From assembly GCA_001828855.1 (NCBI GenBank), contig MHZT01000044.1, positions 62,001 through 126,000 of the forward strand: a stretch of DNA of 64,000 nt, given 5' to 3'. Positions 43,394 through 60,294 of this stretch are shown here, in pieces. Each line of letters opens with the position of its first letter. Within the stretch, counting starts at the first letter, position 1. This DNA comes from Rhodobacterales bacterium RIFCSPHIGHO2_02_FULL_62_130. GTDB taxonomy: Bacteria; Pseudomonadota; Alphaproteobacteria; Rhodobacterales; Rhodobacteraceae. The notes beneath the pieces are model-generated. The model worked only from the letters and a program-made list of their open reading frames with translations. It had not been told where the DNA came from and did not search any database. Both the position numbers and the translations under genes were made by a program.

Positions 43394-43409
43394 TTGCATA
43401 CGTATTCTA
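43394..43409. promoter_or_regulatory. Candidate LacI-type operator, site 1
   Basis: TTGCATACGTATTCTA follows the palindrome TTGCAWWCGWWTGCAA with two mismatches in the right half and the CG centre typical of LacI-family operators. It lies 93 bases before the first NTF2-like gene. Confidence 0.6.
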
Positions 43410-43502
43410 TCGCGGTCAGTTCTATTGGGGTCAATATACACTTCGGGTCAAGGCAGGGCCGAGTCGCTGCCAATGATCCGGAACAAGCGGCAGGAGAGAG
43501 CC

Positions 43503-44666
43503 ATGGCAGAAAAGAATGACAGCGCGAAACCGATTGCGGAACTGACACCCGCGCGCTCAGGGAAAGTGATGCAGGTCGAGCGGCACGATTACCCCGATCT
43601 GGCCCCCGTGAACCGCAAACGCGCCCAGCCGATGCGCGGCTTTGACGAGGTTTACACCGATATCGTGGATTACATCGTGCGCTGCACCCACAAGATCTGG
43701 GACGAACGCGACATCGGCCTGATCTATTCGCATTACACCCATAACTGCGTTCTGTATGGCACGACCGGCACGCTTTACACGCGCGAGGAGGTGGTGCGCG
43801 ATACGATTCAGCGACTGGTTTCCTTCCCGGAACGGCGGGGAATGGCGACTCAGGTGATCTGGAAGGGTAACGAGGATGACGGGTTTTACACCTCGCATCT
43901 GGTCACCGGAACCGGCCGCCATACCCAGAACGGCCACCTTGGCGCACCGACGGGGCGGATGTTCACGTCGCGCACTGTGGCCGACTGCATGATCTATGAA
44001 AACAAGATCTACCGCGAATGGGTTGTGGCCGACACCACCGCGATCCTTCAGCAACTGGGGCTGGATGTGCAGGCCTATGCCCAGCGCATTGCCACAGCAA
44101 GCTTTGACAAAGGCCTTGTTTCACTGGACATTGGCGAGAACCGCCACATGATCGGCCAATATCCCCCCGAGGCCGAGGCCGATCTTTCGCTGGCCTCGAC
44201 CGAAACCGAGCGGCACACGCTGCGCTGGATGCATGATGTCTATAATCGCAAGATGCTTGGCACGATTGCATCGGTATGCGCCCCGACCGTGCAGTATCAC
44301 GGACCGCTGATGACCGAACTTTACGGCGTGGCTTCGGTAATCCACCAGACGCTTGGGTTGATCGGGTCGCTGCCAGACGCAGCCTTCACACCGCAACATA
44401 TCTGCTCGAACCCTTGTGAAGAGGGCGGCGAAAAGGTGGCGGTCCGCTGGATCATGGAGGGCCACCATCTGGGCTATGGCATTCTGAACCATCTGGGTGC
44501 GCCGACCGGCAAACGGGTGCAGGTTATGGGGATCAGCCATTTCCACTACAAGAACGGCAAGATCGTGGACGAATGGCGCACATACGACGAGGCGTCGATG
44601 CTGGTGCAGGTCAAGTTGGCGCAGATGGCCGACCGCAAGGCCGCAGCCCTGACCGCACCCAACTGA
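43503..44666 (+). CDS. NTF2/SnoaL-like double-domain protein (paralog of 59251-60219)
   Basis: This 387-residue protein contains two NTF2/SnoaL-like cone-shaped domains (about residues 45-190 and 215-375). The repeated pattern is a helix with IW.E..I (KIWDERDIGLIYSHYT), a stretch ending RT.ADC..Y, and a final EW motif (IYREWVVADT; KIVDEWRTYDEASM). Such folds serve as small-molecule isomerases, hydrolases or binding proteins; the function here is unknown. Ribosome site AGGAGAG precedes the ATG at 43503. It has its own operator-like site upstream and a strong terminator downstream. A paralog at the other end of the island has the same kind of operator. Confidence 0.85.
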   Translation: MAEKNDSAKPIAELTPARSGKVMQVERHDYPDLAPVNRKRAQPMRGFDEVYTDIVDYIVRCTHKIWDERDIGLIYSHYTHNCVLYGTTGTLYTREEVVRDTIQRLVSFPERRGMATQVIWKGNEDDGFYTSHLVTGTGRHTQNGHLGAPTGRMFTSRTVADCMIYENKIYREWVVADTTAILQQLGLDVQAYAQRIATASFDKGLVSLDIGENRHMIGQYPPEAEADLSLASTETERHTLRWMHDVYNRKMLGTIASVCAPTVQYHGPLMTELYGVASVIHQTLGLIGSLPDAAFTPQHICSNPCEEGGEKVAVRWIMEGHHLGYGILNHLGAPTGKRVQVMGISHFHYKNGKIVDEWRTYDEASMLVQVKLAQMADRKAAALTAPN

Positions 44667-44686
44667 TCTGTCACGCCCTCGCAAAG

Positions 44687-44721
44687 CCCGATCCGCTACC
44701 CAGCGGGTCGGGTTCTTTTTT
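44687..44721 (+). terminator. Rho-independent terminator after the first NTF2-like gene
   Basis: CCCGATCCGCT (44687-44697) pairs with AGCGGGTCGGG (44702-44712), with one G-U pair and a 4-nt loop, followed by TTCTTTTTT. This is the most canonical terminator in the window. Confidence 0.9.
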
Positions 44722-44761
44722 GACTCTTTGGGAAAAGCGACATTCCACCAGCACATAATAA

Positions 44762-44777
44762 TTGCAATCGTATGCAA
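44762..44777. promoter_or_regulatory. Candidate LacI-type operator, site 2
   Basis: TTGCAATCGTATGCAA is an almost perfect 16-bp palindrome with a central CG. The identical 16-mer is found at 60279-60294. It lies 96 bases before the ABC binding-protein gene, just after the terminator of the previous gene. Confidence 0.8.
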
Positions 44778-44873
44778 AGAGTGTTTAGCTTCCGAAACGG
44801 AATGGGCAATCCTTCGCCCGCGCTAAAACCCGATCAAAAGCCGGGACCGGCAACACCAACACAGGGGTGCAAG

Positions 44874-46130
44874 ATGAAGATGAATTTGACCAAGACTGTC
44901 GCTGCAGGCGCCGTAAGCATTGCGGCCTTGATTGCAGGCGGCGGGGCGGCTTTTGCCGAGTGCGCGATTCAGGGGGCGGGATCGGTCCGCATTCTGTCCA
45001 ACGACTTCGAAGCGCTGCGTGTGGTGAATGATGCCGCAGCCACTTGTGCGACCGATACCGTCGCCATCACCGCCAACGCGACGGCGGAACACAAGAACAT
45101 CCAGGGTCCGGCACTGACGGCCAATCCGGCGGAATATACCGTAGCGGTGGTTGCCAACAACTCGATCGTGCCGCTGCTGAATGACGGGCTGATTCGCCCG
45201 CTGGATGATCTGGTCGCACAATATGGTGCCTCGCTGCAGCCGAACCAACTGATCAAGATCGACGGCAAGGTGATGGCGATTGCGTTCATGGGCAACGGCC
45301 AGCACCTGTTCTACCGCAAGGACATTCTGGAAAAAGCCGGGCTGGACGTGCCGACATCCTATGAAGACATTCTGGCAGACGCACAGGTCATCAAGGACAT
45401 GGGCCTGATGGAATACCCGCTGGCCGCTTCGAACAAACCGGGCTGGGATCTGGCGGCTGAGTTCGTGAATATGTATCTTGGCACCGGTGCTGAGTTCTTT
45501 GCAGCCGGAGCGGCCGATCTTGCGATCGACAACGACAGCGGTCGCAAAGTCTTGGAAACCATGCGCGCCATGACAGCGTTCATGAACCCCGATTACCTGA
45601 CCTATGACGCGAACGAATTGAACAAGGTCTGGGATGCGGGCAACGTCGCCTTCATGCAACAGTGGGGCTCGCTGGCCGGTGCTACCATCGATCCGGCAAC
45701 CGCGAACCCCGAAGTTGCCGCCAATACCGGCTTTGCCGCAGCCCCGACCATCGGCGGCGGCACCACTCCGGCAGCGGCGCTGTGGTGGGACGGCTTTACC
45801 ATCGCACAGAACATCTCGGACGAGGACGCCGCCGCGTCCTTCCAAGCGATGGTGCATGGCATCAGCCCCGAAACAGTGGCAGCCCATCCCGATGCCGCAA
45901 CCTGGCTGGTGGCTGGCTATACCCCCGGCCCGGCGGCTGTTGGCGTGATCGGCAATGCGACGGGCGGAGCCAAGGCTTATCCGATGCAGCCCTATATGGG
46001 CCTGCTGCATACCGCCCTGTCGGCAGAGCTTGCGGACTTTATCGCTGGCAAGGAAGACGCGGATCAGGCGCTGAAAGACGTGAAAGCGGCCTATGACACC
46101 GCAGCCATGGAAGGCGGCTTCCTGAAGTAA
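44874..46130 (+). CDS. ABC transporter substrate-binding protein (family 1, MalE/UgpB-like)
   Basis: The 418-residue precursor has a signal peptide (LTKTVAAGAVSIAALIAGGGAAFA) and the two-lobed fold of family 1 solute-binding proteins, usually for carbohydrates or polyols. Recognisable regions include GQHLFYRKDILEKAGLDVP and VAFMQQWGSLAGA. The ATG at 44874 gives a typical signal peptide; the longer frame would add 34 non-signal residues. It is followed by a terminator-like hairpin and then by the permease genes. The ligand is unknown, and the island's enzymes suggest it is not a simple sugar. Confidence 0.92.
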   Translation: MKMNLTKTVAAGAVSIAALIAGGGAAFAECAIQGAGSVRILSNDFEALRVVNDAAATCATDTVAITANATAEHKNIQGPALTANPAEYTVAVVANNSIVPLLNDGLIRPLDDLVAQYGASLQPNQLIKIDGKVMAIAFMGNGQHLFYRKDILEKAGLDVPTSYEDILADAQVIKDMGLMEYPLAASNKPGWDLAAEFVNMYLGTGAEFFAAGAADLAIDNDSGRKVLETMRAMTAFMNPDYLTYDANELNKVWDAGNVAFMQQWGSLAGATIDPATANPEVAANTGFAAAPTIGGGTTPAAALWWDGFTIAQNISDEDAAASFQAMVHGISPETVAAHPDAATWLVAGYTPGPAAVGVIGNATGGAKAYPMQPYMGLLHTALSAELADFIAGKEDADQALKDVKAAYDTAAMEGGFLK

Positions 46131-46142
46131 CCTCCCCAGCCT

Positions 46143-46175
46143 TGCCCGGCCGCGTCAGGTGGCCGGGCATTTTTT
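46143..46175 (+). terminator. Intercistronic terminator after the binding-protein gene
   Basis: TGCCCGGCC (46143-46151) pairs perfectly with GGCCGGGCA (46161-46169) over a 9-nt loop and is followed by six T residues. It probably stops part of the transcripts and keeps permease levels below the binding protein. Confidence 0.88.
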
Positions 46176-46232
46176 CTTGCGAGCCGCCACGTTTGCCCTG
46201 AACACGGGGCGAAAGGACGCTTTGCGTTCACC

Positions 46233-46260
46233 CGGCCCTCCTCGAACGGCCCTCCTCGAA
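46233..46260 (+). repeat. Perfect tandem duplication of a 14-mer before the permease gene
   Basis: CGGCCCTCCTCGAA occurs twice head-to-tail (46233-46246 and 46247-46260), ending 13 bases before the permease ATG. Each copy contains CCTCCT, which could pair with a Shine-Dalgarno sequence. Confidence 0.85.
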
Positions 46261-46273
46261 CTGGATCGCCCCG

Positions 46274-47305
46274 ATGCCGCATCGCACCTTCTTTGCATTC
46301 ATCTTCCCTTCCATCCTTGCCATGCTGCTGTTCATCACGTTGCCGATCATTTCGGTGGCCATGCAGTCGCTTTTTGTTGAGCATCCCGCCGTCGTGACCG
46401 AGGTCGAGAATTGCGGCCCGTTTGGCTGCACGACCGAAACCAAGGTCGATACCGAAGCCATGGCCAAGCTGAAGGCAGATCAGCCGATGGGGGCTTTCGC
46501 GGGATTCTCCAACTATCTGAACCACAACCATCTGGCGGTGGATGATCTGCGCGCGATTTTCGGCGATAACCGTGGCATTGGCGATATCGTCGCCCGCGTG
46601 ATGAACCTGCCGTTTTACCGCGCGCTGGCCTTCACGCTGACCTATTGCTTTTTCGTCACCCCCTTTGCGATGGCCTTGGGCTTTTTCATCGCGCTGGCGG
46701 TGAACACCATGCCAAAGCTGCTGAAGGGTCCGGCGATTTTCGTCTCGATCCTGCCGATGATCATCACGCCTTTGGTGGGATCACTGATCCTTGCGTGGAT
46801 GTTCAACCCGGCAGGCATTTTCGGCGCGACGCTACAATCCCTGACCGGAGACCCGACGCTGTCTCTGCGCGCCTCGCCGGTGCTGACATGGATCGTCATC
46901 CTGACCTACGGTGTCTGGACCAACGGGCCGTTCTCATTTGTGGTGTTCTATGCGGGCCTGCAAACCGTGCCGAAAGACACGCTGGAGTCGGCGCGGATCG
47001 ACGGAGCAACGCGCTGGCAGGCGACGCGCTTTGTCATCATCCCCCACCTGATGCCTTTGGCAACCTTTGTGGCGCTGGTGCAGTTGATGGATAACTTCCG
47101 CGTCTTTGAACCCATTGTCGGCTTTTCGGCCGAGGCCAATGCAACTTCGCTGAGTTGGCTGGTGTTCAACGATCTGGTCAGTCAGGACAGCCAGCAGTTC
47201 GGATCTGCCGCAGCGACCTCGGTCATCACCATTGTCGGCGTCTTGATCCTGTTGACTCCTGTCCTGATCCGCACATGGCGCGATTTTAACCGGAAGGCGG
47301 TGTAA
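46274..47305 (+). CDS. Carbohydrate-type ABC transporter permease (MalF/UgpA-like)
   Basis: This 343-residue permease has six to seven membrane segments and an enlarged periplasmic loop between the first two (about residues 35-95). The EAA coupling motif is ESARIDGATRWQATRFVIIP. It pairs with the permease at 47307 and the ATPase at 48180. The start is preceded by a tandem repeat rather than a clear ribosome site. Confidence 0.93.
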   Translation: MPHRTFFAFIFPSILAMLLFITLPIISVAMQSLFVEHPAVVTEVENCGPFGCTTETKVDTEAMAKLKADQPMGAFAGFSNYLNHNHLAVDDLRAIFGDNRGIGDIVARVMNLPFYRALAFTLTYCFFVTPFAMALGFFIALAVNTMPKLLKGPAIFVSILPMIITPLVGSLILAWMFNPAGIFGATLQSLTGDPTLSLRASPVLTWIVILTYGVWTNGPFSFVVFYAGLQTVPKDTLESARIDGATRWQATRFVIIPHLMPLATFVALVQLMDNFRVFEPIVGFSAEANATSLSWLVFNDLVSQDSQQFGSAAATSVITIVGVLILLTPVLIRTWRDFNRKAV

Positions 47306-47306
47306 G

Positions 47307-48176
47307 ATGAATGGTCAACCTTTGGGCCTGAAAACCCTGACAACCGCCTTTCTGACCCTCTGGCTTCTGGCTGCCGTATTCCCGTTTGCGTGGACGGTCT
47401 GGGGCAGCTTCAAGGTTGAGGCCGATTTCTTCTCGCGCCAATCGTGGTGGTTTGCCATCGAAGGCGTCCGCACCGTGCAGCAAACCGGCGGCACCTTCAC
47501 GCTGGCCGGCTATGAAGGCGCTTGGGTGCAGAACGAATTCTGGAAAGCCGCGATCAACACCCTGATCGTGACGCTGTCGGTCACGACGATCTCGTTGGTG
47601 GTGGGGACGCTTGGCGGTTATGCGCTGGCAAGATCGGGCCACCGCTATGCGTTCTGGATTCTGATTGCGGCGCTGGTGTTCCGTGCCATGCCGCATATCA
47701 CGCTGGTGTCGGGTTATCTGCTGCCGTTCTTCCAGTTGAACATCTGGGGCTATCTGCCCACCACCATCATCGTGCTGGTCGCAATCAACCAGCCCTTCAC
47801 CCTGTGGATGCTGCACAGCTTTTTCCTGTCGATCCCCAAGGATCTGGACGAAAGCGCACTGGTCGATGGCTGCACAAGGTTTCAGGCTTTCCGCATGGTC
47901 ATCATCCCCGTGATGTGGCCGGGTGTGATCACGACCGGCCTGTTCAGCTTTTTGCTGGGATATAACGACTTCGCGGTCACCTCGATGCTGCTGCGTCAGG
48001 AAAACCAGACCATGATCCCGAAAATCGCCTCCTTCCTTGGGTCCATCCAGAACGAAGGCAATGTGATGTTCGCTGTTGCCGCCGTTGTGTCGGCGACGGT
48101 CCCGCTCTTCATCCTCGTTCTTTTCTTCCAACGGCAGATTGTATCCGGCCTGACCGCCGGCGCCGTGAAAGGGTAA
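47307..48176 (+). CDS. Carbohydrate-type ABC transporter permease (MalG/UgpE-like)
   Basis: The 289-residue product has six predicted membrane segments and the EAA coupling loop DESALVDGCTRFQAFRMVII. It begins one base after the stop of its partner permease and is followed by the ATPase gene after three bases. It forms the second half of the heterodimeric channel. Confidence 0.94.
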   Translation: MNGQPLGLKTLTTAFLTLWLLAAVFPFAWTVWGSFKVEADFFSRQSWWFAIEGVRTVQQTGGTFTLAGYEGAWVQNEFWKAAINTLIVTLSVTTISLVVGTLGGYALARSGHRYAFWILIAALVFRAMPHITLVSGYLLPFFQLNIWGYLPTTIIVLVAINQPFTLWMLHSFFLSIPKDLDESALVDGCTRFQAFRMVIIPVMWPGVITTGLFSFLLGYNDFAVTSMLLRQENQTMIPKIASFLGSIQNEGNVMFAVAAVVSATVPLFILVLFFQRQIVSGLTAGAVKG

Positions 48177-48179
48177 ATC

Positions 48180-49229
48180 ATGGCACAAATCCGCCTCGTC
48201 AATGTCTGCAAACGCTGGGGCGCCTATGTGGGCGTCGATAACTTCAACCTTGAAATCGCAGACTCCGAATTTCTGGTTCTGCTGGGGCCATCGGGCTGTG
48301 GCAAGACAACAACCATGCGGATGATCGCAGGGCTTGAGGAGTTGACCTCGGGCGAAATCTGGATCGGGGACAAGATGGTCAACCGGCTGGAGCCGAAAGA
48401 CCGCGATATCTCGATGGTGTTCCAAAGCTACGGGCTTTACCCGAACCTGTCGGTCTATGAAAACATCCGCTTTCCGCTGCGGGTCCGCAATATTCCCAAG
48501 GCCGAGCACCATGAACGGGTGATGCGGGCATCGGATATGGTGGAACTGGGGCCGTTCCTTGACCGCCGCCCCGCCGCCCTGTCAGGCGGCCAGCGTCAGC
48601 GGGTGGCCTTGGCGCGCGCCATCGTGCGCGAGCCGAACGCCTTTCTGATGGACGAACCGCTGTCCAACCTTGACGCCAAGCTACGTGTCTCGACACGGGC
48701 GCAGATCAAGAACCTGCACCACACCCTGAAAACCACCACGATCTATGTCACCCATGACCAGATCGAGGCGATGACGCTGGCCGACCGTGTGGTGGTGATG
48801 AATCACGGCGTTGTGCAGCAGCTTGGCACCCCGACCGAAATTTACGACCGCCCCGCCAACACCTTTGTCGCAAGCTTTATCGGATCGCCGGCGATGAACC
48901 TGATTGCGGGTGAGGTTGTGGACGGCACCTTCCACGCCGAGGGGATGCAGATTGCAGGGCTGCGCGCGGTGGCCGGGCCTGTCACACTGGGCTTTCGGGC
49001 CGAGGATGCGCGGGTCGTCCACGAGGGCGGCGAAATCACTGCGCCCGTCTATTCGATGGAGCTTTTGGGCGATGCAACGCTGGTCTCGGTGCGGATCGGC
49101 ACAGCCCTTGTGGCGGTGCGTGCGCCCAAGGATTTCCGCATCGAGATCGGCGCGTCGATCCGCATGGCGGTCCCCCACGCCGCTGTCCACCTTTTTGACC
49201 ATGCCACTGGCGCAAGGCTTGATGTATGA
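48180..49229 (+). CDS. ABC transporter ATP-binding protein (MalK/UgpC family)
   Basis: This 349-residue ATPase has Walker A GPSGCGKTT, signature LSGGQRQRVALARAI, Walker B FLMDEPLSNLD and a C-terminal TOBE-like domain (about residues 240-349). It energises the importer encoded just upstream. In UgpC/MalK proteins the C-terminal domain can also receive regulatory signals. Confidence 0.95.
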   Translation: MAQIRLVNVCKRWGAYVGVDNFNLEIADSEFLVLLGPSGCGKTTTMRMIAGLEELTSGEIWIGDKMVNRLEPKDRDISMVFQSYGLYPNLSVYENIRFPLRVRNIPKAEHHERVMRASDMVELGPFLDRRPAALSGGQRQRVALARAIVREPNAFLMDEPLSNLDAKLRVSTRAQIKNLHHTLKTTTIYVTHDQIEAMTLADRVVVMNHGVVQQLGTPTEIYDRPANTFVASFIGSPAMNLIAGEVVDGTFHAEGMQIAGLRAVAGPVTLGFRAEDARVVHEGGEITAPVYSMELLGDATLVSVRIGTALVAVRAPKDFRIEIGASIRMAVPHAAVHLFDHATGARLDV

Positions 49230-49289
49230 AAGGGTTGCCCGCCCCAGCGGCTTTGTCGCAAATTGGGTGCGGGCATAGGGAGAGTTCGG

Positions 49290-50309
49290 TTGGCCAATGA
49301 GAAAGTCACATCGCTGGAGGTTGCCGCCTTGGCAGGTGTCAGCCAATCTGCGGTCAGCCGCGTTTTCACGCCCGGCTCCTCGGTAAGCCAGAAAACCGCC
49401 GACAAGGTGCGTGCTGCGGCGGCCCAGCTTGGCTATCGCCCCAATGTGCTGGCGCGATCACTCAAATCCGGCAAAAGCCGGATCATTGGCTTGGTCGTGG
49501 CCTATCTGGAGAACTACTTCTACCCCGAAATGGTAGAGCGGCTTTCGACCGAATTGCAGAAGGTCGGCTATCATGTGCTGATCTTTCTTGCGCCTGTAGC
49601 TTCGGTCAATGTGGATCAGGTCATTCGGGAAATTCTTGATTATCAAGTGGATGGCATTGTGATGGCCTCGGTCTCGATGTCATCCGAACTGGCAGCACGC
49701 TGTGCGGCCACGGGGATTCCGGTTGTTCTGTTCAACCGCGCCCACGCCGACAAGAATCTGTCCTCTGTCACCTCGGACAACTTTGCGGGCGGCAAGGCGC
49801 TGGCGGATTACCTCTGCTCGCTCGGGCATCAGCGCATCGCCTATATTGCCGGTTTCGCTGGCGCCTCGACCCAAGCTGACCGTGAGGCGGGGTTTCGTGC
49901 AGGGCTGGCCGAGGCAGGGCAAGAATTATTCGCCCGCGCTGATGGCAATTTCGACTATGCCACCGCTCAGGCCGCCGCGCGCGAGTTGTTTGCCACCTCA
50001 CGCCGCCCCGATGCGGTTTTTGTCGCCAATGACCATATGGCCTTTGCGGTAATGGATGTGCTGCGCTTCGAACTGGGGCTGCGCGTGCCAGAGGATGTTT
50101 CCGTTGTGGGCTTTGACGATGTGCCGCCCGCCGCATGGCCTGCCTATAACCTGACGACCTTCCGCCAGCGGGTTGACCAGATGGTCGCCGAAACCGTCAC
50201 CATGTTGACCACTTGGATCGCAGCCGACCAGCCCGAAGTTGCCCGCGTGGTGCTGTCAGGCGAGTTGGTGATCCGTGGCTCGACCCGCCGCCATGGAACC
50301 ACCCGATGA
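49290..50309 (+). CDS. LacI-family transcriptional regulator (likely controller of the island)
   Basis: The 339-residue protein has an N-terminal LacI helix-turn-helix (SLEVAALAGVSQSAVSRVF) with hinge (YRPNVLARSLKSGKS) and a periplasmic-binding-protein-like effector domain. The start is probably the TTG at 49290, which has GGGAGAG at a suitable distance; a TTG nine codons earlier is less likely. It follows the importer genes and overlaps the small gene at 50306 by four bases. The CG-centred palindromes at 43394, 44762, 53256, 53427 and 60279 fit the operator type of this family, so I infer it controls all these units. Confidence 0.92.
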   Translation: MANEKVTSLEVAALAGVSQSAVSRVFTPGSSVSQKTADKVRAAAAQLGYRPNVLARSLKSGKSRIIGLVVAYLENYFYPEMVERLSTELQKVGYHVLIFLAPVASVNVDQVIREILDYQVDGIVMASVSMSSELAARCAATGIPVVLFNRAHADKNLSSVTSDNFAGGKALADYLCSLGHQRIAYIAGFAGASTQADREAGFRAGLAEAGQELFARADGNFDYATAQAAARELFATSRRPDAVFVANDHMAFAVMDVLRFELGLRVPEDVSVVGFDDVPPAAWPAYNLTTFRQRVDQMVAETVTMLTTWIAADQPEVARVVLSGELVIRGSTRRHGTTR

Positions 50310-50449
50310 CCGAAGCCGATTTCCGCGCCCGCCTTGCAGCCTTGGGAATAGAACTTGATGCTCATGCCTTTGCCGCAGCCTTCAAGGGCGCGCAGCATTT
50401 GCGGGCCGAGGTTGCCAAGATTGACGCCTATCTGGCCGCAAAAGCATGA
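50306..50449 (+). CDS. Small AtzG/GatC-like accessory protein
   Basis: This 47-residue protein (starting MTEADFRARLAALGIELDAH) is mostly helical. Its size, position and ATGA overlaps with both neighbours resemble AtzG, the small subunit that stabilises the AtzE amidase in the cyanuric acid pathway, and GatC of GatCAB. Sequence similarity to the DUF4089 (AtzG) pattern is modest, so the assignment rests mainly on gene order. Confidence 0.65.
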   Translation: MTEADFRARLAALGIELDAHAFAAAFKGAQHLRAEVAKIDAYLAAKA

Positions 50450-51804
50450 CCGATCCGGCCGATTATTCGATTCCCGAAGCCGCCTTGGCGCTGCGCGAAG
50501 GCAGATTGACTGCGCGGCAACTGGTGACTGCTGCGCTGGACCGGATCGCGCAGCGCAACGACCGGCTACACGCCTTCACCCATCTGAACCCTGATGCTCT
50601 GGCCGAAGCTGACCGCGCCGATGCCATGCTGGCCGCAGGTGCTGCCCCCCCCTTGTGCGGGATTCCGGTTGCCGTGAAAGACCTGATTGACGTGGGCGGA
50701 CTGCCTGCCACCAGTGGCTCTGCCGTGCTGTCGGGGCGGATTGCCGCCGCGGATGCCGATGCCGTAGCGCAGTTGCGCGCACAAGGCGCTGTGATCCTTG
50801 GCAAACTTGCCACCTATGAATTCGCCATGGTCGGCCCCGACCTGAACTTGCCCGATCCGCCCGCCCGCAATCCATGGAATTTGAACCATATCACCGGCGG
50901 ATCGTCCTCGGGGTCGGCCAGTGCTGTGGCAGGGGGGCTTGTGCGGTTGGCCCTTGGCACCGATACCGGCGGCTCTATCCGAAGCCCCTCGGCCTATTGC
51001 GGCTGCGTCGGGCTGAAACCCAGTTATGACCGCGTTTCCCGTGCCGGAGCCTTCCCCCTCTCGCCCGCGCTGGATCACACCGGCCCGCTGGCCGCAACGG
51101 TCGAAGAGGCCGCGCTTGCCCTTGACGCGATGACAGCAGCGCCGAACGATTGGCGCCCCGCCAGCGCCCGCCTTGATCGCGGCGCAGAGGGCTTGCGGAT
51201 CGGCTATGCCCGCGACTGGTTCGCGCAAGACCTACAGGCAAGCCCCGCCCTGATCCGCGCCATGGACGATGCCGCCGCCAGCTTTTCCATGCTTGGGGCC
51301 AGTATCACCCCAGTATCGCTACCCGACTACGGCATGTTCGAGGCCGCTGGCTCGGTCATTCTGCATGCCGAGGCGCTGGCCGAACACCTGTCACTGATCC
51401 GCGACCACCTGCCGCGTTATGGCCGGCCCGTGCTGCAATGCCTTGCCTTCGGAACCGCGGTCGATGCCGAAGATGTTCAGCGCGCCCGTATGGCGCAAGC
51501 CTGCCTGACCCAAGACATGCTGGCGGCGATGGCACCTTTTGATCTGGTGATTACGGCCACCACACTGACCCCTGCCCTGCCTTTCTCGGCCTTCGACGGG
51601 GAAAAGGCCGTCTGGACGCCGATGCGGACCATCCCTTTCAACGTCACAGGCCAACCGGTGCTGTCGGTTCCGGTGGGCTTTGACGGCGATCTGCCGCTGG
51701 GGATGCAGATTATCGGGCGCAGGGGCGACGAAGACCTGATTTGCGCCGCCGGTAATGCCTTTGAGCGGGCGACAGACCATTCGGTCCAGCGCCCGCCGCT
51801 TTGA
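50446..51804 (+). CDS. Amidase signature family enzyme (AtzE/GatA-like)
   Basis: The 452-residue enzyme has the amidase signature catalytic set: Lys in VAVKDLIDVGG, and the Ser region GGSSSGSASAVAGG followed by LGTDTGGSIRSPSAYCG. It should hydrolyse an amide or carbamate. It overlaps the small AtzG-like gene upstream and lies in the LacI/importer operon, so it probably acts on the imported compound or a close product. It converges on the HisD-like gene with a strong hairpin between them. Confidence 0.92.
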   Translation: MTDPADYSIPEAALALREGRLTARQLVTAALDRIAQRNDRLHAFTHLNPDALAEADRADAMLAAGAAPPLCGIPVAVKDLIDVGGLPATSGSAVLSGRIAAADADAVAQLRAQGAVILGKLATYEFAMVGPDLNLPDPPARNPWNLNHITGGSSSGSASAVAGGLVRLALGTDTGGSIRSPSAYCGCVGLKPSYDRVSRAGAFPLSPALDHTGPLAATVEEAALALDAMTAAPNDWRPASARLDRGAEGLRIGYARDWFAQDLQASPALIRAMDDAAASFSMLGASITPVSLPDYGMFEAAGSVILHAEALAEHLSLIRDHLPRYGRPVLQCLAFGTAVDAEDVQRARMAQACLTQDMLAAMAPFDLVITATTLTPALPFSAFDGEKAVWTPMRTIPFNVTGQPVLSVPVGFDGDLPLGMQIIGRRGDEDLICAAGNAFERATDHSVQRPPL

Positions 51805-51852
51805 TTTCCTCTTGGCTCGAGCTTAGCTGACATAACCACATTGGCCTGCCGA

Positions 51853-51879
51853 TGCGGTCAGGGGCTGGCCCTGACCGCA
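51853..51879. terminator. Bidirectional hairpin between amidase and HisD-like gene
   Basis: TGCGGTCAGGG (51853-51863) pairs perfectly with CCCTGACCGCA (51869-51879) over a 5-nt loop in the 97-base gap between convergent genes. T runs are lacking. Confidence 0.6.
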
Positions 51880-51901
51880 GGTTCAAGATTAGCCGCGCAG
51901 G

Positions 51902-53197: not shown

Positions 53198-53255
53198 AGG
53201 ACGCTCCGTTCTGGCCTGTGTGCGGTATGACTATTGGGGCGGAATATATGGCATA

Positions 53256-53271
53256 ATGCATACGATTGCAA
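53256..53271. promoter_or_regulatory. Candidate LacI-type operator, site 3
   Basis: ATGCATACGATTGCAA differs at one base from the complement of sites 2 and 5. It lies between the divergent HisD-like genes, 58 bases before the minus-strand copy. Confidence 0.78.
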
Positions 53272-53426
53272 AGATAAGTTTGCCCAATCTCCAAAACGCC
53301 GACCCTTCAGCCAATTTATAACGGGAAAACAATCGCTTGTCGCGCCTTCTAGCGGCATACGTACAAATATTTCACTTAGCCCAGCACAAGACACTTGCCA
53401 TACCCTCGCAGTTTGCCCTATCCATG

Positions 53427-53442
53427 TTGCAAACGTATTCAA
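53427..53442. promoter_or_regulatory. Candidate LacI-type operator, site 4
   Basis: TTGCAAACGTATTCAA matches the CG-centred palindrome with one mismatch and resembles site 1. It ends 13 bases before the ATG of the plus-strand HisD-like gene, where a bound repressor would block transcription. Confidence 0.65.
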
Positions 53443-53455
53443 GCCGGGGGAAAAG

Positions 53456-54766
53456 ATGTCGGTGACTTGGCTGAAGCGCGGCAAGCCGGAAACAGAGCGC
53501 GCCGCCGATGACGCAAAGGTTCGGGCAACGGTGGAAACCGTTCTTGGCGATATCGAGACGCGCGGCGATGCAGCGGTGCGGGATTTGTCGGTGAAATTTG
53601 ACAAATATGACCCGCCCGCTTTCAGGCTGACCGCATCGGAAATCGAGTCTGCGATGGCCAAGGTCGCCCCGCGCGACATGGAAGATATCCGCTTTGCCCA
53701 GACCCAGATCCGGCGCTTTGCCGAAGCCCAGCGCGCCTCGATGACCGATATCGAGGTGGAAACCCTGCCCGGCGTCTTTCTGGGCCACCGCAATATTCCG
53801 GTACAATCGGTGGGTTGCTATGTGCCGGGCGGCAAGTTTCCCATGGTCGCCTCGGCGCATATGTCGGTATTGACTGCGGCTGTGGCAGGAGTTCCGCGCA
53901 TCATCGCCAGCGCGCCGCCGGTGAATGGCGCGCCGCATCCGGCGATTGTGGCTGCGATGGCGATGGGCGGCGCGCATGAAATCTATGTGATGGGCGGCAT
54001 GCAGGCGGTGGGGGCGATGGCCATCGGGACCGAAACCATCAAACCCGTGGATATGCTGGTCGGCCCCGGCAATGCCTATGTGGCCGAGGCCAAACGCCAG
54101 CTTTATGGCCGCGTCGGCATCGACCTGTTCGCAGGCCCGACCGAAACGATGGTGATCGCGGATGATACGGTGGATGCCGAGCTATGCGCGACCGACCTGC
54201 TGGGACAGGCCGAACACGGCTACAACTCGCCCGCGGTGCTGCTGACCAATTCGCGCAAACTGGCCGAAGCGACCTTGCTGGAAATCGACCGCCTGCTGGA
54301 AATCCTGCCCACTGCGGCAACGGCGGGCGTAAGTTGGGCCGATTACGGCGAGGTGATCCTGTGCGACAGCTATGACGAGATGCTGGCCGTCGCCAATGAC
54401 ATCGCGTCCGAGCATGTGCAGGTGATGACCGACCGCGATGACTGGTTCCTTGAGAACATGCACAGCTATGGCGCGCTTTTCCTTGGCCCGCGCACCAATG
54501 TCGCCAACGGCGATAAGGTGATTGGCACCAACCACACGCTGCCCACCAAAAAGGCAGGGCGCTATACCGGCGGATTGTGGGTTGGCAAGTTTCTGAAAAC
54601 CCACAGCTATCAGCGCGTTGTCACCGACGAGGCGGCGGCATTGGTGGGTGAATACGGCAGTCGGCTGTGCATGCTGGAAGGCTTTGTCGGCCATGCCGAA
54701 CAGTGCAACATCCGCGTGCGCCGCTATGGCCACAAGAATATCCCCTACGGAGCTGCCGCAGAATGA
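53456..54766 (+). CDS. Histidinol dehydrogenase-like enzyme, paralog 2 (HpsN-like)
   Basis: The 436-residue protein again retains the HisD catalytic residues: [31 protein letters not shown] and the late His in [12 protein letters not shown]. The substrate loop reads AGPTETMV where paralog 1 and HisD have AGPSE. From memory the C-terminal region ([20 protein letters not shown]) resembles sulfopropanediol 3-dehydrogenase of marine Rhodobacteraceae. The ATG at 53456 follows a GGGGGAAAAG ribosome site. It is the first gene of a plus-strand operon through 59172 and overlaps the SDR gene. Confidence 0.9.
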
Positions 54767-55527
54767 CCCTGCCCCGCACCCCATCGTTCCGGCTGGATGG
54801 TCGTCGCGCCTTGGTGGCGGGGGCATCTTCGGGCATCGGCGCCGCCTGCGCCGTAGCCTTGGCCGAGCAAGGTGCCGAGGTTACCCTATGCGCCCGCCGC
54901 GGGACCGAGTTGGCGGCACTTGCAGCCGAAATGACAGCGGCGGGGATGCGGGCGCGCACGCTGACGCTGGACATCACCGATCTGACTGCCACCGAGGCGG
55001 CTCTGGCAGCCCTTCCTGCGTATGACGTTCTGGTCAATTCCGCCGGGATCGCGCGCCATTCGCCCGCGATCGAGACCAGGCCCGAGGATTTCGATCTTGC
55101 CGCCAATCTCAACTTTCGCGCCGCATATTTCCTGACCCGCACCGTTGCGGCGCGGCTGATCGCCGAGGGCAAGACCGGCAGCCTGATCAATATCTCAAGC
55201 CAGATGGCCCATGTCGGCGGCATTGACCGCGCTGTTTATGCCGCCACCAAACACGCAGTCGAAGGCATGACCAAAAGTATGGCGATCGAATGGGGTCCAC
55301 ATGGCATCCGCGTCAACACTATCGCCCCCACCTTCATCCGGACGCCGCTCACCGAAGTTACCTTCGCAAACCCCGACCGCGCCGCGTGGATCGCCAGCAA
55401 GATCAAACTGGGCCGCGTTGGCGAGGTGACCGACATCATGGGGGCGGTGGCGTTGCTTGCCTCGGATGCGGGCAGCCTGATCACCGGAACCTCTTTGCTT
55501 ATCGATGGCGGCTGGACCGCAGATTGA
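54763..55527 (+). CDS. SDR-family oxidoreductase
   Basis: This 254-residue classical short-chain dehydrogenase has the cofactor motif [16 protein letters not shown], and the catalytic Ser with YAATK. An arginine pair after the second strand (CARRGTE) suggests NADP use. It overlaps the HisD-like gene by four bases, the same pairing as HisD/SDR modules for diol oxidation. It may make or epimerise the alcohol used by the HisD-like enzyme. Confidence 0.93.
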
Positions 55528-55556
55528 CCAAAACTGACTAACCCCAAAGGTGCCAC

Positions 55557-56525
55557 ATGACTCCTGCCGAAATGGAAGCCCGTATCGTCCGCTATGGCGA
55601 TCTGCGCCCCTGCAAGACCGCGTTCATTGACGCGCATACTCCCGGATCGAACCGGAAAGAGAACTTCACCATCATCGGCGGCGGCGTGTCGGAATCCCCT
55701 GACCAGCACGTTCATATCGTTGACACCCCCGGCTTCAACATCGGGGCGGCTGGGCAGCCTCCGGGGTGCCGCAACTCGTTGCACACCCACCGCACCGCCG
55801 AGGTGTTCTTCGTGCTGAAAGGCCGCTGGAGGTTCTTCTGGGGCCGTTGGGGAACAGCCGGAGAATTTGTGGCCGAGGAAGGTGATATCTTCAACATCCC
55901 GACCGGCATTTTCCGCGCCTTTGAGAATATCGGCACCGATTACGGGATGATCATGGCCATCCTTGGCGGGGATGACGCTGGTGGCGGCGTGGTCTGGGCG
56001 CCGCAGGTCATCACCGATGCCAAGGATTACGGGCTGGTACTGGGCAAGAACGGCAAGCTTTACGACACCAAACAGGGCCAAAGCCTGCCCGAAGGCGTGC
56101 CGCCCATGCCGCTGTTGACGGATGAGGAACTCAAAGCCTTCCCCGAACCCACCACCGCCGAGGTGATCCCGAATTGTGTGGCCCGCTATTGGGACCTGAT
56201 GGCGCTGTCGGATCGCCAGCCCGCCAAGGTGATCGGCGCCGAAGGCAAACTGCGCGACCGTCCGGGGTTCGAGGTTGAACTGCTGTCGCGCAACTCGATC
56301 CCCGACACGCCCTACACCCTGAACCAGCACGAGATTCTGATGCCGATGCGCGGCTATTGGCGTCTGTCTTGGGCGGATGGCTCGACCGTTCTGAACCCCG
56401 GCGATACGGCGGCGATCCCCCCCGGTCTGGAACACAGCCTTGCACCGTCTATGACAGGTGAATCCTCGCTCTATCGTGTTATCAGCACGAATGACCCCGC
56501 CGGCACCACCGGTCGCCTCCTGTAG
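55557..56525 (+). CDS. Double cupin-domain protein
   Basis: The 322-residue product contains two cupin units. The first (about residues 60-130) has metal-ligand-like His and Glu residues (LHTHRTAEVFFVLKGRWRFFWG, residues 77-98) and the closing element near DIFNIPTGIFRAF. The second (about 230-310) reads NQHEILMPMRGYWRL and ends GDTAAIPPGLEHSL. Such bicupins include dioxygenases, isomerases and lyases on aromatic or sugar acids. Its specific reaction is unknown. It lies 29 bases after the SDR gene in the same operon. Confidence 0.87.
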   Translation: MTPAEMEARIVRYGDLRPCKTAFIDAHTPGSNRKENFTIIGGGVSESPDQHVHIVDTPGFNIGAAGQPPGCRNSLHTHRTAEVFFVLKGRWRFFWGRWGTAGEFVAEEGDIFNIPTGIFRAFENIGTDYGMIMAILGGDDAGGGVVWAPQVITDAKDYGLVLGKNGKLYDTKQGQSLPEGVPPMPLLTDEELKAFPEPTTAEVIPNCVARYWDLMALSDRQPAKVIGAEGKLRDRPGFEVELLSRNSIPDTPYTLNQHEILMPMRGYWRLSWADGSTVLNPGDTAAIPPGLEHSLAPSMTGESSLYRVISTNDPAGTTGRLL

Positions 56526-56565
56526 GTCGGGGTTCACCCCGACTCCCGCCCTCAAAGGACTGCCC

Positions 56566-57687
56566 ATGACCCTTCTCGCAACGCATGTCGGCTCTCTCCC
56601 CCGCTCTCAGGACGTGGTGGATTTCCTCTTTGCCCGCGAAAAGGGCCAACCCTTTGATCCCGCCGCCTTCGATGCCTGCATGACGGCGGCGGTGGATGAA
56701 AATGTCCGTCGCCAGAAGGCGGCGGGCGTCGACATCGTCTCGGATGGCGAGGCATCGAAGATCAGCTACGCCACCTATGTCAAAGACCGCTACACCGGCT
56801 TTGACGGCGACAGCCCCCGCAACGCGCCCGCCGATCTGAAACTGTTCCCGACCTTCCTTGACCGTCTGGCCCGCGCCGGTGGCACGCCGAAATATGCCCG
56901 CCCGCAATGCGTGGGTCCGGTGGCCTCCAAGGGGCAGGGAGAGCTGCAAAAGGACATCGCCAACCTGAAAGGCGCGATGGCAAAGCACGGCGTTGATCGC
57001 GGCTTCATGAACGCAGCTTCGCCGGGTGTGATCGCCCTTTTTCTGCAAAACGCGCATTACCCCACCCGCGAGGCCTATCTTGAGGCTTTGGCCAACGCGA
57101 TGCGTGACGAATACCGCACCATCCTTGAGTCGGGTCTGGATCTACAACTCGATTGCCCCGATCTGGCGCTGTCGCGGCATATGCTGTTTGCCGATCTGTC
57201 GGATGCCGAATTCCTGAAGATCGCCGCCACCCACGTCGAAGCGCTGGAACATGCGCTCAAAGGGCTGCCGCAGGACCGCATCCGCCTGCATATCTGCTGG
57301 GGCAATTACGAAGGCCCGCATGTCTGCGACATTGATATGGCAAAGGTGTTCCCGCTGCTGATGAAGGTGCCAGCCACCTATCTGCTGTTCGAAACCGCCA
57401 ACCCCCGCCACGGCCATGAATGGACGGTGTTCCGCGACCGTGCTGCCGAAATCCCGCAGGACAAGGTGCTGATCCCCGGTGCGGTGGACACCACGACGAA
57501 CTTTGTCGAACATCCCGATCTGGTGGCGCAACGGCTGGAGCGTTTTACAAATATCCTTGGCCATGACCGCGTGATTGCCGGATCGGACTGCGGTTTCGGC
57601 ACCTTTGCCGGCTTTGGCGCGGTGGACCCCGAAATCGCATGGGCCAAGCTGGCGACCCTGAAGGAAGGCGCGCGGCGGGTGAAATGA
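56566..57687 (+). CDS. MetE C-terminal-like (cobalamin-independent methionine synthase II family) protein
   Basis: This 373-residue protein corresponds to the C-terminal catalytic barrel of MetE alone. It has the beginning THVGSLPRSQDVVDFLF and the zinc-site residues expected of the family: His and Cys in LHICWGNYEGPH, Glu in LLFETANPRHGHEW, and Cys in IAGSDCGFGTFAG. Stand-alone relatives occur in catabolic clusters and may act as thiol or methyl transferases or lyases rather than in methionine synthesis. The ATG at 56566 is used; the longer frame runs back into the cupin gene. Confidence 0.88.
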   Translation: MTLLATHVGSLPRSQDVVDFLFAREKGQPFDPAAFDACMTAAVDENVRRQKAAGVDIVSDGEASKISYATYVKDRYTGFDGDSPRNAPADLKLFPTFLDRLARAGGTPKYARPQCVGPVASKGQGELQKDIANLKGAMAKHGVDRGFMNAASPGVIALFLQNAHYPTREAYLEALANAMRDEYRTILESGLDLQLDCPDLALSRHMLFADLSDAEFLKIAATHVEALEHALKGLPQDRIRLHICWGNYEGPHVCDIDMAKVFPLLMKVPATYLLFETANPRHGHEWTVFRDRAAEIPQDKVLIPGAVDTTTNFVEHPDLVAQRLERFTNILGHDRVIAGSDCGFGTFAGFGAVDPEIAWAKLATLKEGARRVK

Positions 57688-58379
57688 CGCCGCTGCTGCT
57701 GATCCCCGGCATGATGTGCGACGCGCGGATGTGGGGCGGCCTGCCCGCCCTGCTGCATCCGCGCCCCGTCGCCCATTGCCTGCCGACCAAGGCCGAGACG
57801 ATGGCCGACCTTGCCGCCCTGATCCTGCGCGACGCACCAGACCGTTTTGCGCTGGCGGGGCTGTCGATGGGGGGCATCGTGGCGATGGAGGTGCTGCGCC
57901 AAGCCCCCGAACGGGTGGAACGGCTTGCCCTGCTGGACACCAACCCCCGCGCCGAGTTGCCCGAGGTTCAGACCCGCCGCGCCCCCCAGGTCGCCCGCGC
58001 CCTGTCGGGCCATCTGGATGCCGTGATCCGCGACGAGATGAAGCCGAATTATCTGGCCGATGGTCCCGACACGCAGCCGATCCTTGATCTGTGCATGGAA
58101 ATGGCGCTGTCGCTTGGCCCGCAGGTGTTCGCCCGCCAGTCGCGCGCCCTGCGCGACCGCCCCGACCAGACCGCAACGCTGGCCGCCTTTCGCGGTCCGG
58201 CACTGGTGCTGATGGGAGAGGGCGACCGACTTTGCCCGCTGGACCGCCACCAGCAGATGCACGCCTTGATGCCGCAATCGCGGCTTGCGATCATCCCGCG
58301 CGCCGGACATCTGCCCACATTGGAAAACCCCGCCGCCACCTTCGCCCATCTGCAAGACTGGCTGCTGCAACCGCGATAG
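57684..58379 (+). CDS. Alpha/beta-fold hydrolase
   Basis: The 231-residue enzyme has the hydrolase nucleophile elbow GLSMGG (LAGLSMGGIVAMEVL), an oxyanion-hole region at PGMMCDARMW, the acidic residue near LMGEGDRLCPLD and the late histidine in IPRAGHLPTLE. It overlaps the MetE-like gene by four bases. It may hydrolyse an ester or a carbon-carbon bond of an intermediate in this operon. Confidence 0.92.
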   Translation: MTPLLLIPGMMCDARMWGGLPALLHPRPVAHCLPTKAETMADLAALILRDAPDRFALAGLSMGGIVAMEVLRQAPERVERLALLDTNPRAELPEVQTRRAPQVARALSGHLDAVIRDEMKPNYLADGPDTQPILDLCMEMALSLGPQVFARQSRALRDRPDQTATLAAFRGPALVLMGEGDRLCPLDRHQQMHALMPQSRLAIIPRAGHLPTLENPAATFAHLQDWLLQPR

Positions 58380-58386
58380 GACCGCC

Positions 58387-59172
58387 ATGCCGATCACCGA
58401 TTTCCAAGCCCGTTTCGCCGCCGGTGGCAAAGCCGTCAACGGCTGGTGCGCCATGCCCTCGCCCGTCACCGCCGAGATCATGGGCCGTCAGGGCTTTGAC
58501 ATGATGACCGTCGATCTGCAGCACGGGTTGATCGACTACCAGATGGCGCTGACCATGCTTCAGGTCTTGCAAGGCCTGCCCGCCCCCGTTCTGGCCCGCT
58601 TGCCGTGGAATGAACCGGGGATCATGGCGAAATGCCTTGATGCCGGTTTTGCCGGTGTAATCTGCCCGATGGTCAACACGGTAGAGGACGCCCGCGCGCT
58701 GGTGCAATCGGCCCGCTATGCCCCGCTGGGCAGCCGGTCCTTCGGGCCGACGCGGGCGAATATGGTCTATGGCGCAGGCTATGCCAAAACCGCGAACAAC
58801 CGCATTCTGGTGCTGGCCATGATCGAAACGCGCGAGGCGCTGGGAAATCTGGATGCCATTCTGGCGGTGGGCGGCATTGACGGGGTCTATGTCGGTCCGT
58901 CGGATCTGGGCCTGTCGCTGGGCTATGAACCCACGCTGGACCCGTCGGCTCCCGAGGTGCTGGAGGCAATTGCCACCATCGCCACCCGCGCCAAGGCTGC
59001 TGGCCGGATCGCGGGCGTCCATACCGGATCGCCCGCCATGATCCGCCGCATGTTCGCGCAGGGCTTTGATTTTGCGTCTCTTCTGACGGATGCGCGGCTG
59101 TTTGCCTCGGCTGTGGCAACCGAGTTGGCAGCCGTGCATGATACAACAGCCGAGGTTGTGAAAGGGTATTAG
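58387..59172 (+). CDS. HpcH/HpaI-family aldolase (class II 2-oxo acid aldolase)
   Basis: This 261-residue barrel has the HpcH/HpaI motifs: TVDLQHGLIDY (acid/base histidine and aspartate), metal-binding Glu in AMIETREALGN and Asp in VYVGPSDLGLSLG. Members split 2-oxo-3-deoxy or 4-hydroxy-2-oxo acids into pyruvate and an aldehyde. It is the last gene of the plus-strand operon, which suggests that the pathway ends in pyruvate plus an aldehyde. Confidence 0.92.
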   Translation: MPITDFQARFAAGGKAVNGWCAMPSPVTAEIMGRQGFDMMTVDLQHGLIDYQMALTMLQVLQGLPAPVLARLPWNEPGIMAKCLDAGFAGVICPMVNTVEDARALVQSARYAPLGSRSFGPTRANMVYGAGYAKTANNRILVLAMIETREALGNLDAILAVGGIDGVYVGPSDLGLSLGYEPTLDPSAPEVLEAIATIATRAKAAGRIAGVHTGSPAMIRRMFAQGFDFASLLTDARLFASAVATELAAVHDTTAEVVKGY

Positions 59173-59189
59173 ACCGGTTTGCGCCGGTC
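59172..59189 (+). terminator. Short hairpin after the aldolase gene
   Basis: GACCGG (59172-59177) pairs with CCGGTC (59184-59189) with a 6-nt loop and two T residues after it; it begins at the last base of the aldolase stop codon. It is a weak terminator candidate. Confidence 0.4.
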
Positions 59190-59215
59190 TTGCGTCAGAT
59201 AATCACAACCGGCTT

Positions 59216-59242
59216 AAAAGCGCAGTCCGGTCAGGACTGCGC
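59216..59242 (-). terminator. Terminator of the second NTF2-like gene
   Basis: GCGCAGTCC (59220-59228) pairs perfectly with GGACTGCGC (59234-59242) over a 5-nt loop. Read on the minus strand it follows the NTF2-like stop codon and is followed by TTTT. Confidence 0.7.
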
Positions 59243-59250
59243 TGCGCCAA

Positions 59251-60219
59251 TCAACCCGCCTGCATTTCGATCTGCTTCCAGATCGCGATTTCATCTACCT
59301 GGGTGAATTCGCGCTGAATACCCCAAGGGCCAAAATCAACGTGGGTGATGCCCATCACATGAACCTCGGCACCAGTGGGGGCGCCAAAGCGGCCAAAGCC
59401 TTCGTGGCGGCCATCAAGGCTCCAGCGGACCGCAGCGCGGGGCTGCCGACCGGCTTCGTCGTTGCCAATCACATGATGCACGGTGAATTTTGCGCGCGGG
59501 AATGATGATCGCAGGCCCATCCATGCAGCCTCGGCAAAGCCCCAAGACCAACCTCCCTGACCGCCCGCATGTTCAATTCTGACCGCTCGGTCATATGTCT
59601 GGCCGATCACCGCAATGTCTTTCCGCATGATCCGGTTCAGGATATCGACCAGCTTGCCGCCCCATTCATTGTCATTTCCGCGCAATGTATAGGCACCAAC
59701 ACGATCCTGATCAGGGGTGAAAACCCGTTTTGCCGTGGCAGGACCGCCTTCGGCAGCGATCTGGCGGCGCACGAAGTCGCGCGGGTCATGGCCAAGCTGT
59801 TTGACGATGGAGCTGCTGTCAAACACCAGCCATTCATCATCGAACACGCCGTCCGTTACCGCACAATCCGCAATGCAGCGCGCGTAATAGCGCTTGCCAG
59901 ATGCCGGACCATAGATGCTGTCTCCGGTCTGCGTTCCGGTAATGACCGAGCGATGCGACGACAAGTAATGCTGGGTTTCTCCACCCGACCAGATCACATC
60001 TTCGGCGAAAATCTGCAAATCCGGAAAGGCGGCCATCTTGGCCAGTGTATCGTCGATCACGGCAGCGCAGCCCAGTTTCATCCCGCCAGCCCCCCGTACA
60101 ATGATATCGGGGGCATAACAGGACTCCAGCAGGGCAATCTGCCGATCCTCCCATATCTCTTTGGTAATACCGATAATGAAATGCGGAAAATCCCGCCATT
60201 TTGGGTCGAAGTTTTTCAC
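59251..60219 (-). CDS. NTF2/SnoaL-like double-domain protein (paralog of 43503-44666)
   Basis: The 322-residue protein has the same two-domain layout as the protein at 43503. Matching elements are EIWEDRQIALLESCYAP, RCIADCAVTDG, DEWLVFDSSSIVKQLG in the first domain, and the closing GAPTGAEVHVMGITHVDFGP in the second (the other copy has GAPTGKRVQVMGISHFHYKN). The function is unknown. It lies convergent to the aldolase gene and has operator site 5 upstream, so it belongs to the same predicted regulon. Confidence 0.85.
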   Translation of the reverse strand: MKNFDPKWRDFPHFIIGITKEIWEDRQIALLESCYAPDIIVRGAGGMKLGCAAVIDDTLAKMAAFPDLQIFAEDVIWSGGETQHYLSSHRSVITGTQTGDSIYGPASGKRYYARCIADCAVTDGVFDDEWLVFDSSSIVKQLGHDPRDFVRRQIAAEGGPATAKRVFTPDQDRVGAYTLRGNDNEWGGKLVDILNRIMRKDIAVIGQTYDRAVRIEHAGGQGGWSWGFAEAAWMGLRSSFPRAKFTVHHVIGNDEAGRQPRAAVRWSLDGRHEGFGRFGAPTGAEVHVMGITHVDFGPWGIQREFTQVDEIAIWKQIEMQAG

Positions 60220-60278
60220 GGGACTCTCCTGTCAACCGAAGGATTGCATCCAAGGGTATGGCTTGGGGTGATTCTTAT

Positions 60279-60294
60279 TTGCAATCGTATGCAA
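60279..60294. promoter_or_regulatory. Candidate LacI-type operator, site 5
   Basis: TTGCAATCGTATGCAA is identical to site 2 and lies 59 bases before the second NTF2-like gene on the minus strand. Confidence 0.8.

Follow-up and report, generated by a model that had tools for sequence, protein, structure and literature searches.

Can genes labelled 'histidinol dehydrogenase', 'ester cyclase' and 'methionine synthase' belong to one catabolic unit, and what would hold them together? The question is raised by an island of about 17 kb in Rhodobacterales bacterium RIFCSPHIGHO2_02_FULL_62_130, which lies in a 64,000-nucleotide stretch of contig MHZT01000044.1 (positions 62,001 to 126,000; hereafter the window, whose own numbering is used throughout), and which a first-pass annotation had described as a regulon defined by five LacI-type palindromes. 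Along the island follow a tandem SnoaL gene (SnoaL-A), the solute-binding protein (SBP), two permeases and ATPase of an ATP-binding cassette (ABC) importer, a LacI-family gene, an amidase, two HisD-like dehydrogenases (HisD-A on the minus strand, then HisD-B), an SDR-family dehydrogenase, a cupin, a MetE-like protein, a hydrolase, an aldolase, and a second SnoaL gene on the minus strand (SnoaL-B). Here, we conclude that the five palindromes very probably serve as operators for the LacI-family protein that the island itself encodes, which would make the island a local repressor regulon.

Scanning the window with the 16-mer TTGCAWWCGWWTGCAA at up to three mismatches returned exactly five matches, at 43394, 44762, 53256, 53427, and 60279, where the first-pass annotation had placed them, and the second and fifth are identical (both TTGCAATCGTATGCAA), as it had also claimed. 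Its statement that all five share the consensus holds for the central CG (5/5), while the strict consensus is fitted by only 2/5 (mismatches of sites 1 to 5: 2, 0, 1, 1, 0), site 1 being off at two positions. A central CG is usual for LacI-family operators (PMC4052901, in excerpt, as are all sources cited here). With gene starts judged by us from ribosome-binding sites and homologues, the sites are as follows.

43394..43409: operator 1, TTGCATACGTATTCTA, 2 mismatches; centre ~101 bp upstream of the SnoaL-A start (43503)
44762..44777: operator 2, TTGCAATCGTATGCAA, 0 mismatches; before the importer operon, centre ~104 bp upstream of the SBP start (44874)
53256..53271: operator 3, ATGCATACGATTGCAA, 1 mismatch; centre ~66 bp upstream of the HisD-A start (53197, minus strand)
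53427..53442: operator 4, TTGCAAACGTATTCAA, 1 mismatch; centre ~21 bp upstream of the HisD-B start (53456)
60279..60294: operator 5, TTGCAATCGTATGCAA, 0 mismatches; centre ~67 bp upstream of the SnoaL-B start (60219, minus strand)

The five operators occupy four intergenic regions, and each lies, as originally proposed, at promoter distance from an island gene. LacI-family sites mostly fall 30-140 bp upstream of starts (PMC4052901), a range that includes four of the five, operator 4 lying outside it.

The whole genome (4,970,223 bases in 53 contigs) was then searched for the palindrome. At no more than one mismatch it occurs at four places, all four inside the island, which answers the earlier concern that it might be equally frequent elsewhere; exactly two mismatches are found at nine places, one of them inside the island (site 1), giving 13 places at up to two mismatches, five of them in the island. 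The pattern written backwards matched at two places at the same threshold, and the density outside the island yields a Poisson probability of about 1e-10 for at least five sites in 16.9 kb. Six of the eight outlying two-mismatch places fall within open reading frames (ORFs) of at least 120 codons, by a crude scan that also includes antisense frames, and two are intergenic (L009 and L011).

Conservation was followed in six of 295 family genomes, those whose LacI proteins are nearest to that of the island (71-92% identical; G077, G202, G247, G283, G285, and G018). The island is present in all six, SnoaL-A being 72-90% identical, and operators 1 to 4 have counterparts at the same genes in 6/6, with 1-2 mismatches for operator 1, none for operator 2, 1-3 for operator 3, and 1-2 for operator 4. 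In the promoter-region alignments the palindromes are the main conserved blocks, most flanking intergenic DNA having diverged; across the 29 sites of the seven islands the central C and G have a frequency of 0.98, and 17 of the 18 sites with at most one mismatch in the relatives' whole genomes are inside the island. Conservation at relatives' promoters, which the first-pass annotation had made a touchstone, is therefore found for sites 1 to 4 and not for site 5: SnoaL-B has no match in the six relatives at E 1e-40 and, with operator 5, occurs only in the window genome among the seven compared. We propose that SnoaL-B is, among these seven, an accessory gene gained recently. Genes further downstream also vary in the relatives (at E 1e-15), the MetE-like gene being found in 3/6, the hydrolase in 5/6, and the aldolase in 4/6.

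Beyond these relatives, the palindrome travels with the regulator. Of the 295 family genomes (one per genus but for one), 125 have a LacI orthologue (best E < 1e-90). A site with at most one mismatch is present in 114 of these, compared with 48 of the remaining 170 (Fisher 2e-29, uncorrected for relatedness); a looser orthologue cut of E 1e-60 gives 116/132 versus 46/163. The best 80 of 578 HisD-B relatives (at least 82% identical over the best segment; Rhodobacterales, some Rhizobiales, and a few others, four of the loci being on the same contigs as the close-relative genomes) provide a second view, centred on an enzyme gene. Their recurrent company comprises the importer, a further SnoaL gene, SDR, LacI, a SnoaL-B-like gene, cupin, MetE-like gene, and hydrolase, with an RraA-type aldolase in 12; gene order differs from that of the window in most, loci with HisD-A and the amidase being nearer its layout. 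Here, 82 of 87 sites (at most one mismatch) lie between 350 bp upstream and 40 bp past an aligned cluster-gene start. Of the loci, 72 are 9 kb or longer, and among these a site accompanies 44 of the 54 with a LacI of at least 50% identity versus 3 of the 18 without, and in those three (L045, L055, and L120) a contig edge lies beside the cluster; some of the ten LacI-bearing loci without a site at this threshold carry weaker ones. Nine further site regions were inspected and a cluster gene was found at the site in seven, the exceptions being L146 and L139 (in G018). The metE-like and cupin genes of G001, which are located away from the cluster, each have a palindrome of their own, ~130 bp before the aligned start for the former and ~68 bp for the latter, and in G197 a second importer copy has its own site.

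Two of the wider loci show other settings. On the Octadecabacter arcticus plasmid pOA238_160 (L136, 3894-22597) the cluster is flanked on both sides by insertion-sequence transposase genes and carries several 'ester cyclase'/NTF2-like genes, which suggests mobility and SnoaL gene expansion. On the Pararhizobium gei plasmid p2 (L137, 10362-16066) a HisD-B homologue and SDR stand beside a different importer and LacI, together with N-acyl homoserine lactonase-family and 3-hydroxyacyl-CoA dehydrogenase genes; the HisD-SDR pair thus occurs in other contexts.

Which protein would read the palindrome? The LacI-family gene that had been placed inside the island is indeed there, at 49263..50309, and its product matches Pfam LacI and Peripla_BP_1/3/4, with the helix-turn-helix (HTH), the hinge, and a periplasmic-binding-protein-like sensor domain. 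LacI-family proteins contact DNA through the recognition helix and the hinge. Among the genome's 15 LacI-family HTH matches, the recognition helix SQSAVSR belongs to the island LacI only, the nearest being SRSAVSR at C35:34862. In the 85 loci with a LacI of at least 50% identity (some from the same genome, one the window itself), the helix is SQSAVSR in 80 and SRSAVSR in the other five, and neither occurs in six loci below 50%. The hinge reads ARSLKSG in the window protein and ARAM in most orthologue loci. Its co-occurrence with the palindrome and a recognition helix unique in this genome support the prediction that the island LacI binds the five palindromes. A related perfect palindrome, TTGCAACCGGTTGCAA, was seen in the same genome at C35:39055-39070 (L010), ~4 kb from the gene with the SRSAVSR helix and inside long frames in the crude ORF scan, and also in four of the six relatives (G077, G202, G247, and G285, which has two). 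Perhaps, as a guess, it is a sister operator, with the change from Q to R in the helix going with WW to CC in the site.

The sites also sit suggestively against promoter elements. At operator 3, on the minus strand, a -35-like hexamer (TTGCAA) lies inside the site and is followed after 17 bp by TATATT. By our own reading, absent from the promoter scan, operator 4 lies between a -10-like CTATCC (of a TTGCCA...CTATCC pair) and the HisD-B start codon, and on a weaker reading operator 2 overlaps a promoter in a similar way to operator 3. Terminator-like sites are found at 44685-44714, between SnoaL-A and operator 2, and at 46143-46169, directly after the SBP gene. DNA looping between operators 3 and 4 was considered and rejected, their spacing of 122-172 bp having no common helical phase in the seven islands.

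In the model that we propose, a LacI dimer would bind the 16-bp site and repress promoters in the four intergenic regions. At operator 3, and possibly at operator 2, it would cover the -35 box, and at operator 4 the transcription start, placements consistent with RNA polymerase being excluded. LacI would be released by a metabolite of the imported compound, which would turn on five transcription units: SnoaL-A; the importer operon, probably including lacI and the amidase; HisD-A; HisD-B with the SDR, cupin, MetE-like, hydrolase, and aldolase genes; and the putatively recent SnoaL-B. Since lacI lies behind the importer genes, it would be autoregulated through operator 2.

The genes concerned are these.

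43503..44666, plus strand: SnoaL-A, tandem SnoaL/NTF2-like protein (Pfam SnoaL, two stretches)
44874..46130, plus strand: SBP, ABC sugar-type solute-binding protein (family profile matches PDB sugar-binding proteins)
46274..47305, plus strand: ABC permease 1 (Pfam BPD_transp_1)
47307..48176, plus strand: ABC permease 2 (Pfam BPD_transp_1)
48180..49229, plus strand: ABC ATPase, MalK-like (Pfam ABC_tran, OB_MalK)
49263..50309, plus strand, exact start uncertain: LacI-family regulator, proposed repressor (Pfam LacI and Peripla_BP_3)
50446..51804, plus strand: amidase (Pfam Amidase)
51902..53197, minus strand: HisD-A, HpsN-like dehydrogenase (Pfam Histidinol_dh; closest PDB chain 8wwe, an (R)-DHPS dehydrogenase)
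53456..54766, plus strand: HisD-B, HpsN-like dehydrogenase (Pfam and PDB matches)
54763..55527, plus strand: SDR-family dehydrogenase (Pfam; its start overlaps the HisD-B stop)
55557..56525, plus strand: cupin protein (Pfam Cupin_2; family alignment)
56566..57687, plus strand: MetE-like protein, cobalamin-independent synthase, catalytic domain (Pfam Meth_synt_2; family alignment)
57684..58379, plus strand: alpha/beta hydrolase (Pfam Abhydrolase_6)
58387..59172, plus strand: HpcH/HpaI aldolase (Pfam HpcH_HpaI; PDB hydroxyketoacid aldolases)
59251..60219, minus strand: SnoaL-B, tandem SnoaL/NTF2-like protein (Pfam SnoaL, two stretches)

Several of these proteins were compared further. The SBP family profile matches generic sugar-binding proteins including SmoF at no more than 62 bits (best 60 of 86 PDB matches), and no substrate was drawn from it; the amidase scores under the cut-off of every NCBIfam model among the 25 matches listed. 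SnoaL-B was modelled at a predicted local distance difference test score (pLDDT) of 89, and in the model both halves align to SnoaL/ketosteroid-isomerase-like chains, as expected of a SnoaL-type fold; the fold search returned SnoaL, ketosteroid-isomerase, and epoxide-hydrolase-like matches, and no reaction was assigned from them. The cupin model (mean pLDDT 51.5) was left out of that search.

The flanks appear to stand apart. To the left (39845-43294) are a SulP-type sulfate permease and a photolyase-related (DPRP) gene, with no palindrome in front of either within three mismatches. To the right (60361-63789) a DeoR-family gene on the minus strand diverges from a DAO/BFD oxidoreductase and a pyridine-nucleotide oxidoreductase, GlpA-like by our reading; no palindrome occurs within three mismatches past 60294 in the window, these genes were dropped as regulon members on that ground, and they are probably regulated separately. 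The earlier linking of the island genes and a 'downstream operon' into one pathway is thus upheld for the island, where co-regulation and recurrent gene company would imply a shared pathway, and fails for the DeoR/GlpA-like genes if those were meant.

Several observations weigh against a dedicated LacI regulon. At up to three mismatches, 15 of 100 window shuffles also reach five matches, and two unrelated-looking three-mismatch matches occur in the six relatives' stretches; site 1, with two mismatches, would not be found alone. Promoter-like matches (9 versus a shuffle mean of 5.3) and terminator-like ones (20 versus 15.4) are near chance overall, the latter total making single terminator-like sites weak evidence. 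The spacing of operators 3 and 4 varies between islands, and the intercalating hinge position is Leu in 16/85 and Met in 68/85 orthologue loci. Eleven of the 125 orthologue-bearing genomes lack a site at up to one mismatch, the 48 orthologue-free genomes that carry one show that the motif is not exclusive, and no cluster gene was found at the L146 site. The case for the sites rests instead on their low mismatch numbers and the genome-wide picture, the window count at three mismatches being ordinary. That the palindromes are composition accidents, or structural palindromes without a regulator, could appeal to the shuffle result, yet this reading is practically negligible: chance was rejected on the concentration in the island across the genome, conservation in 6/6 relatives, and co-occurrence with LacI, and the reversed pattern gives 24 matches (hand count) versus 322 for the palindrome over the 295 genomes. 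Some more room, still small, is left for the palindromes belonging to another LacI-family protein (e.g., the SRSAVSR regulator at C35:34862), with the island LacI binding elsewhere or sharing them. The number of LacI-family HTH matches in the genome, the closeness of the SRSAVSR helix and its presence in 5/85 orthologue loci, and the site-bearing genomes without an orthologue all speak for it, as does a perfect site before an alpha-glucosidase and maltose-type importer operon in G018 (L139, 7672-7687, on C4), which probably belongs to another LacI-family protein's regulon; there, two such proteins may use almost the same operator. Against this unlikely arrangement, the palindromes co-occur with orthologues of the island LacI itself, and TTGCAACCGGTTGCAA may, at a guess, be the operator of the SRSAVSR regulator.

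A further alternative concerns what a regulon of the island's own LacI would control, namely whether the island serves the catabolism of sulfopropanediol (DHPS), with LacI controlling enzymes of the HpsN/HpsO type. The four nearest PDB chains of both HisD-A and HisD-B are DHPS dehydrogenases, ahead of histidinol dehydrogenases, and the adjoining SDR has HpsO (8wwf) sixth among its PDB matches, the closest chains being 2-deoxy-D-gluconate 3-dehydrogenases. Alignments show the catalytic Glu318-His319, the zinc ligand Asp352, and Lys353 kept in both window proteins, Asp352-Lys353 being kept in all 94 readable sequences (two HisD-A were not readable there). However, CpHpsN is marked by His126, which closes the 122-126 motif and recognises the sulfonate (PMC11382572), and by alignment its equivalent is absent throughout, replaced in HisD-B by Met (80/81, including the window protein) or Leu (1/81) and in HisD-A by Leu (15/15, the window protein likewise). 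HisD-A and HisD-B, being without His126, fall outside HpsN. Nor is any sulfolactate-degrading gene found among the island genes given to Pfam, and the hps cluster as described in the excerpted text of PMC11382572 includes no SnoaL, cupin, MetE-like, or aldolase gene. We rejected the DHPS pathway on the failed His126 comparison and regard it as improbable, slightly more so than operators of another LacI-family protein. The two HisD-likes would likely take an alcohol to an acid by four-electron oxidation. The genome has a third gene of the HisD superfamily outside the island (C3:230442, 38% identical to HisD-B), the likelier candidate for the histidine-pathway housekeeping enzyme.

What, then, would the LacI regulon serve? 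The family membership of the enzymes suggests that a hydroxylated, probably anionic compound is oxidised and finally split by aldol cleavage. We propose, with moderate confidence in all parts taken together, that a widespread and undescribed alphaproteobacterial pathway is under the regulon's control, and that the operator was carried along as genes were reshuffled and new ones such as SnoaL-B recruited. In this proposed pathway, tandem SnoaL, cupin, and MetE-like proteins would act on a new substrate class together with HpsN-like four-electron dehydrogenases that lack the sulfonate-reading histidine. No description of this cluster was recognised from the titles and abstract starts of open-licence papers, a weak absence given that coverage. 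Genes with misleading labels thereby become one testable unit, and with a proposed regulator, operator, and gene list defined, screening for the inducer could show which substrate is used by a cluster that occurs in many Rhodobacterales and in some Rhizobiales.

The regulon is of an ordinary kind, for a pathway without a recognised description, and it can be set beside three known systems. Non-phosphorylative sugar-acid pathways end in HpaI/2-keto-3-deoxygluconate (KDG)-type aldolases, and the island resembles them in its SDR, hydroxyketoacid aldolase (RraA in relatives), sugar-type importer, and LacI regulator; unlike them, it shows no known type of sugar-acid dehydratase (IlvD/enolase) among the genes given to Pfam, a place that the SnoaL proteins may take. 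DHPS catabolism by hpsN/hpsO/hpsP is alike in that a HisD-superfamily dehydrogenase and an SDR are neighbours, accompanied by a transporter and a regulator (PMC11382572, PMC11131964), whereas the island lacks the His126 equivalent, carries many extra genes, and has a sugar-type ABC importer where Cupriavidus pinatubonensis uses an MFS uptake system (PMC11382572). Closest in regulatory design are the local LacI-family sugar regulons of AglR and ThuR in Alphaproteobacteria (PMC4052901), which share the even palindrome with a central CG, the regulator gene inside the locus, the ABC importer with catabolic genes, and sites mostly 30-140 bp upstream, and from which, as excerpted there, the island differs in its HisD-like, SnoaL, cupin, and MetE-like genes and in having five sites in four intergenic regions.

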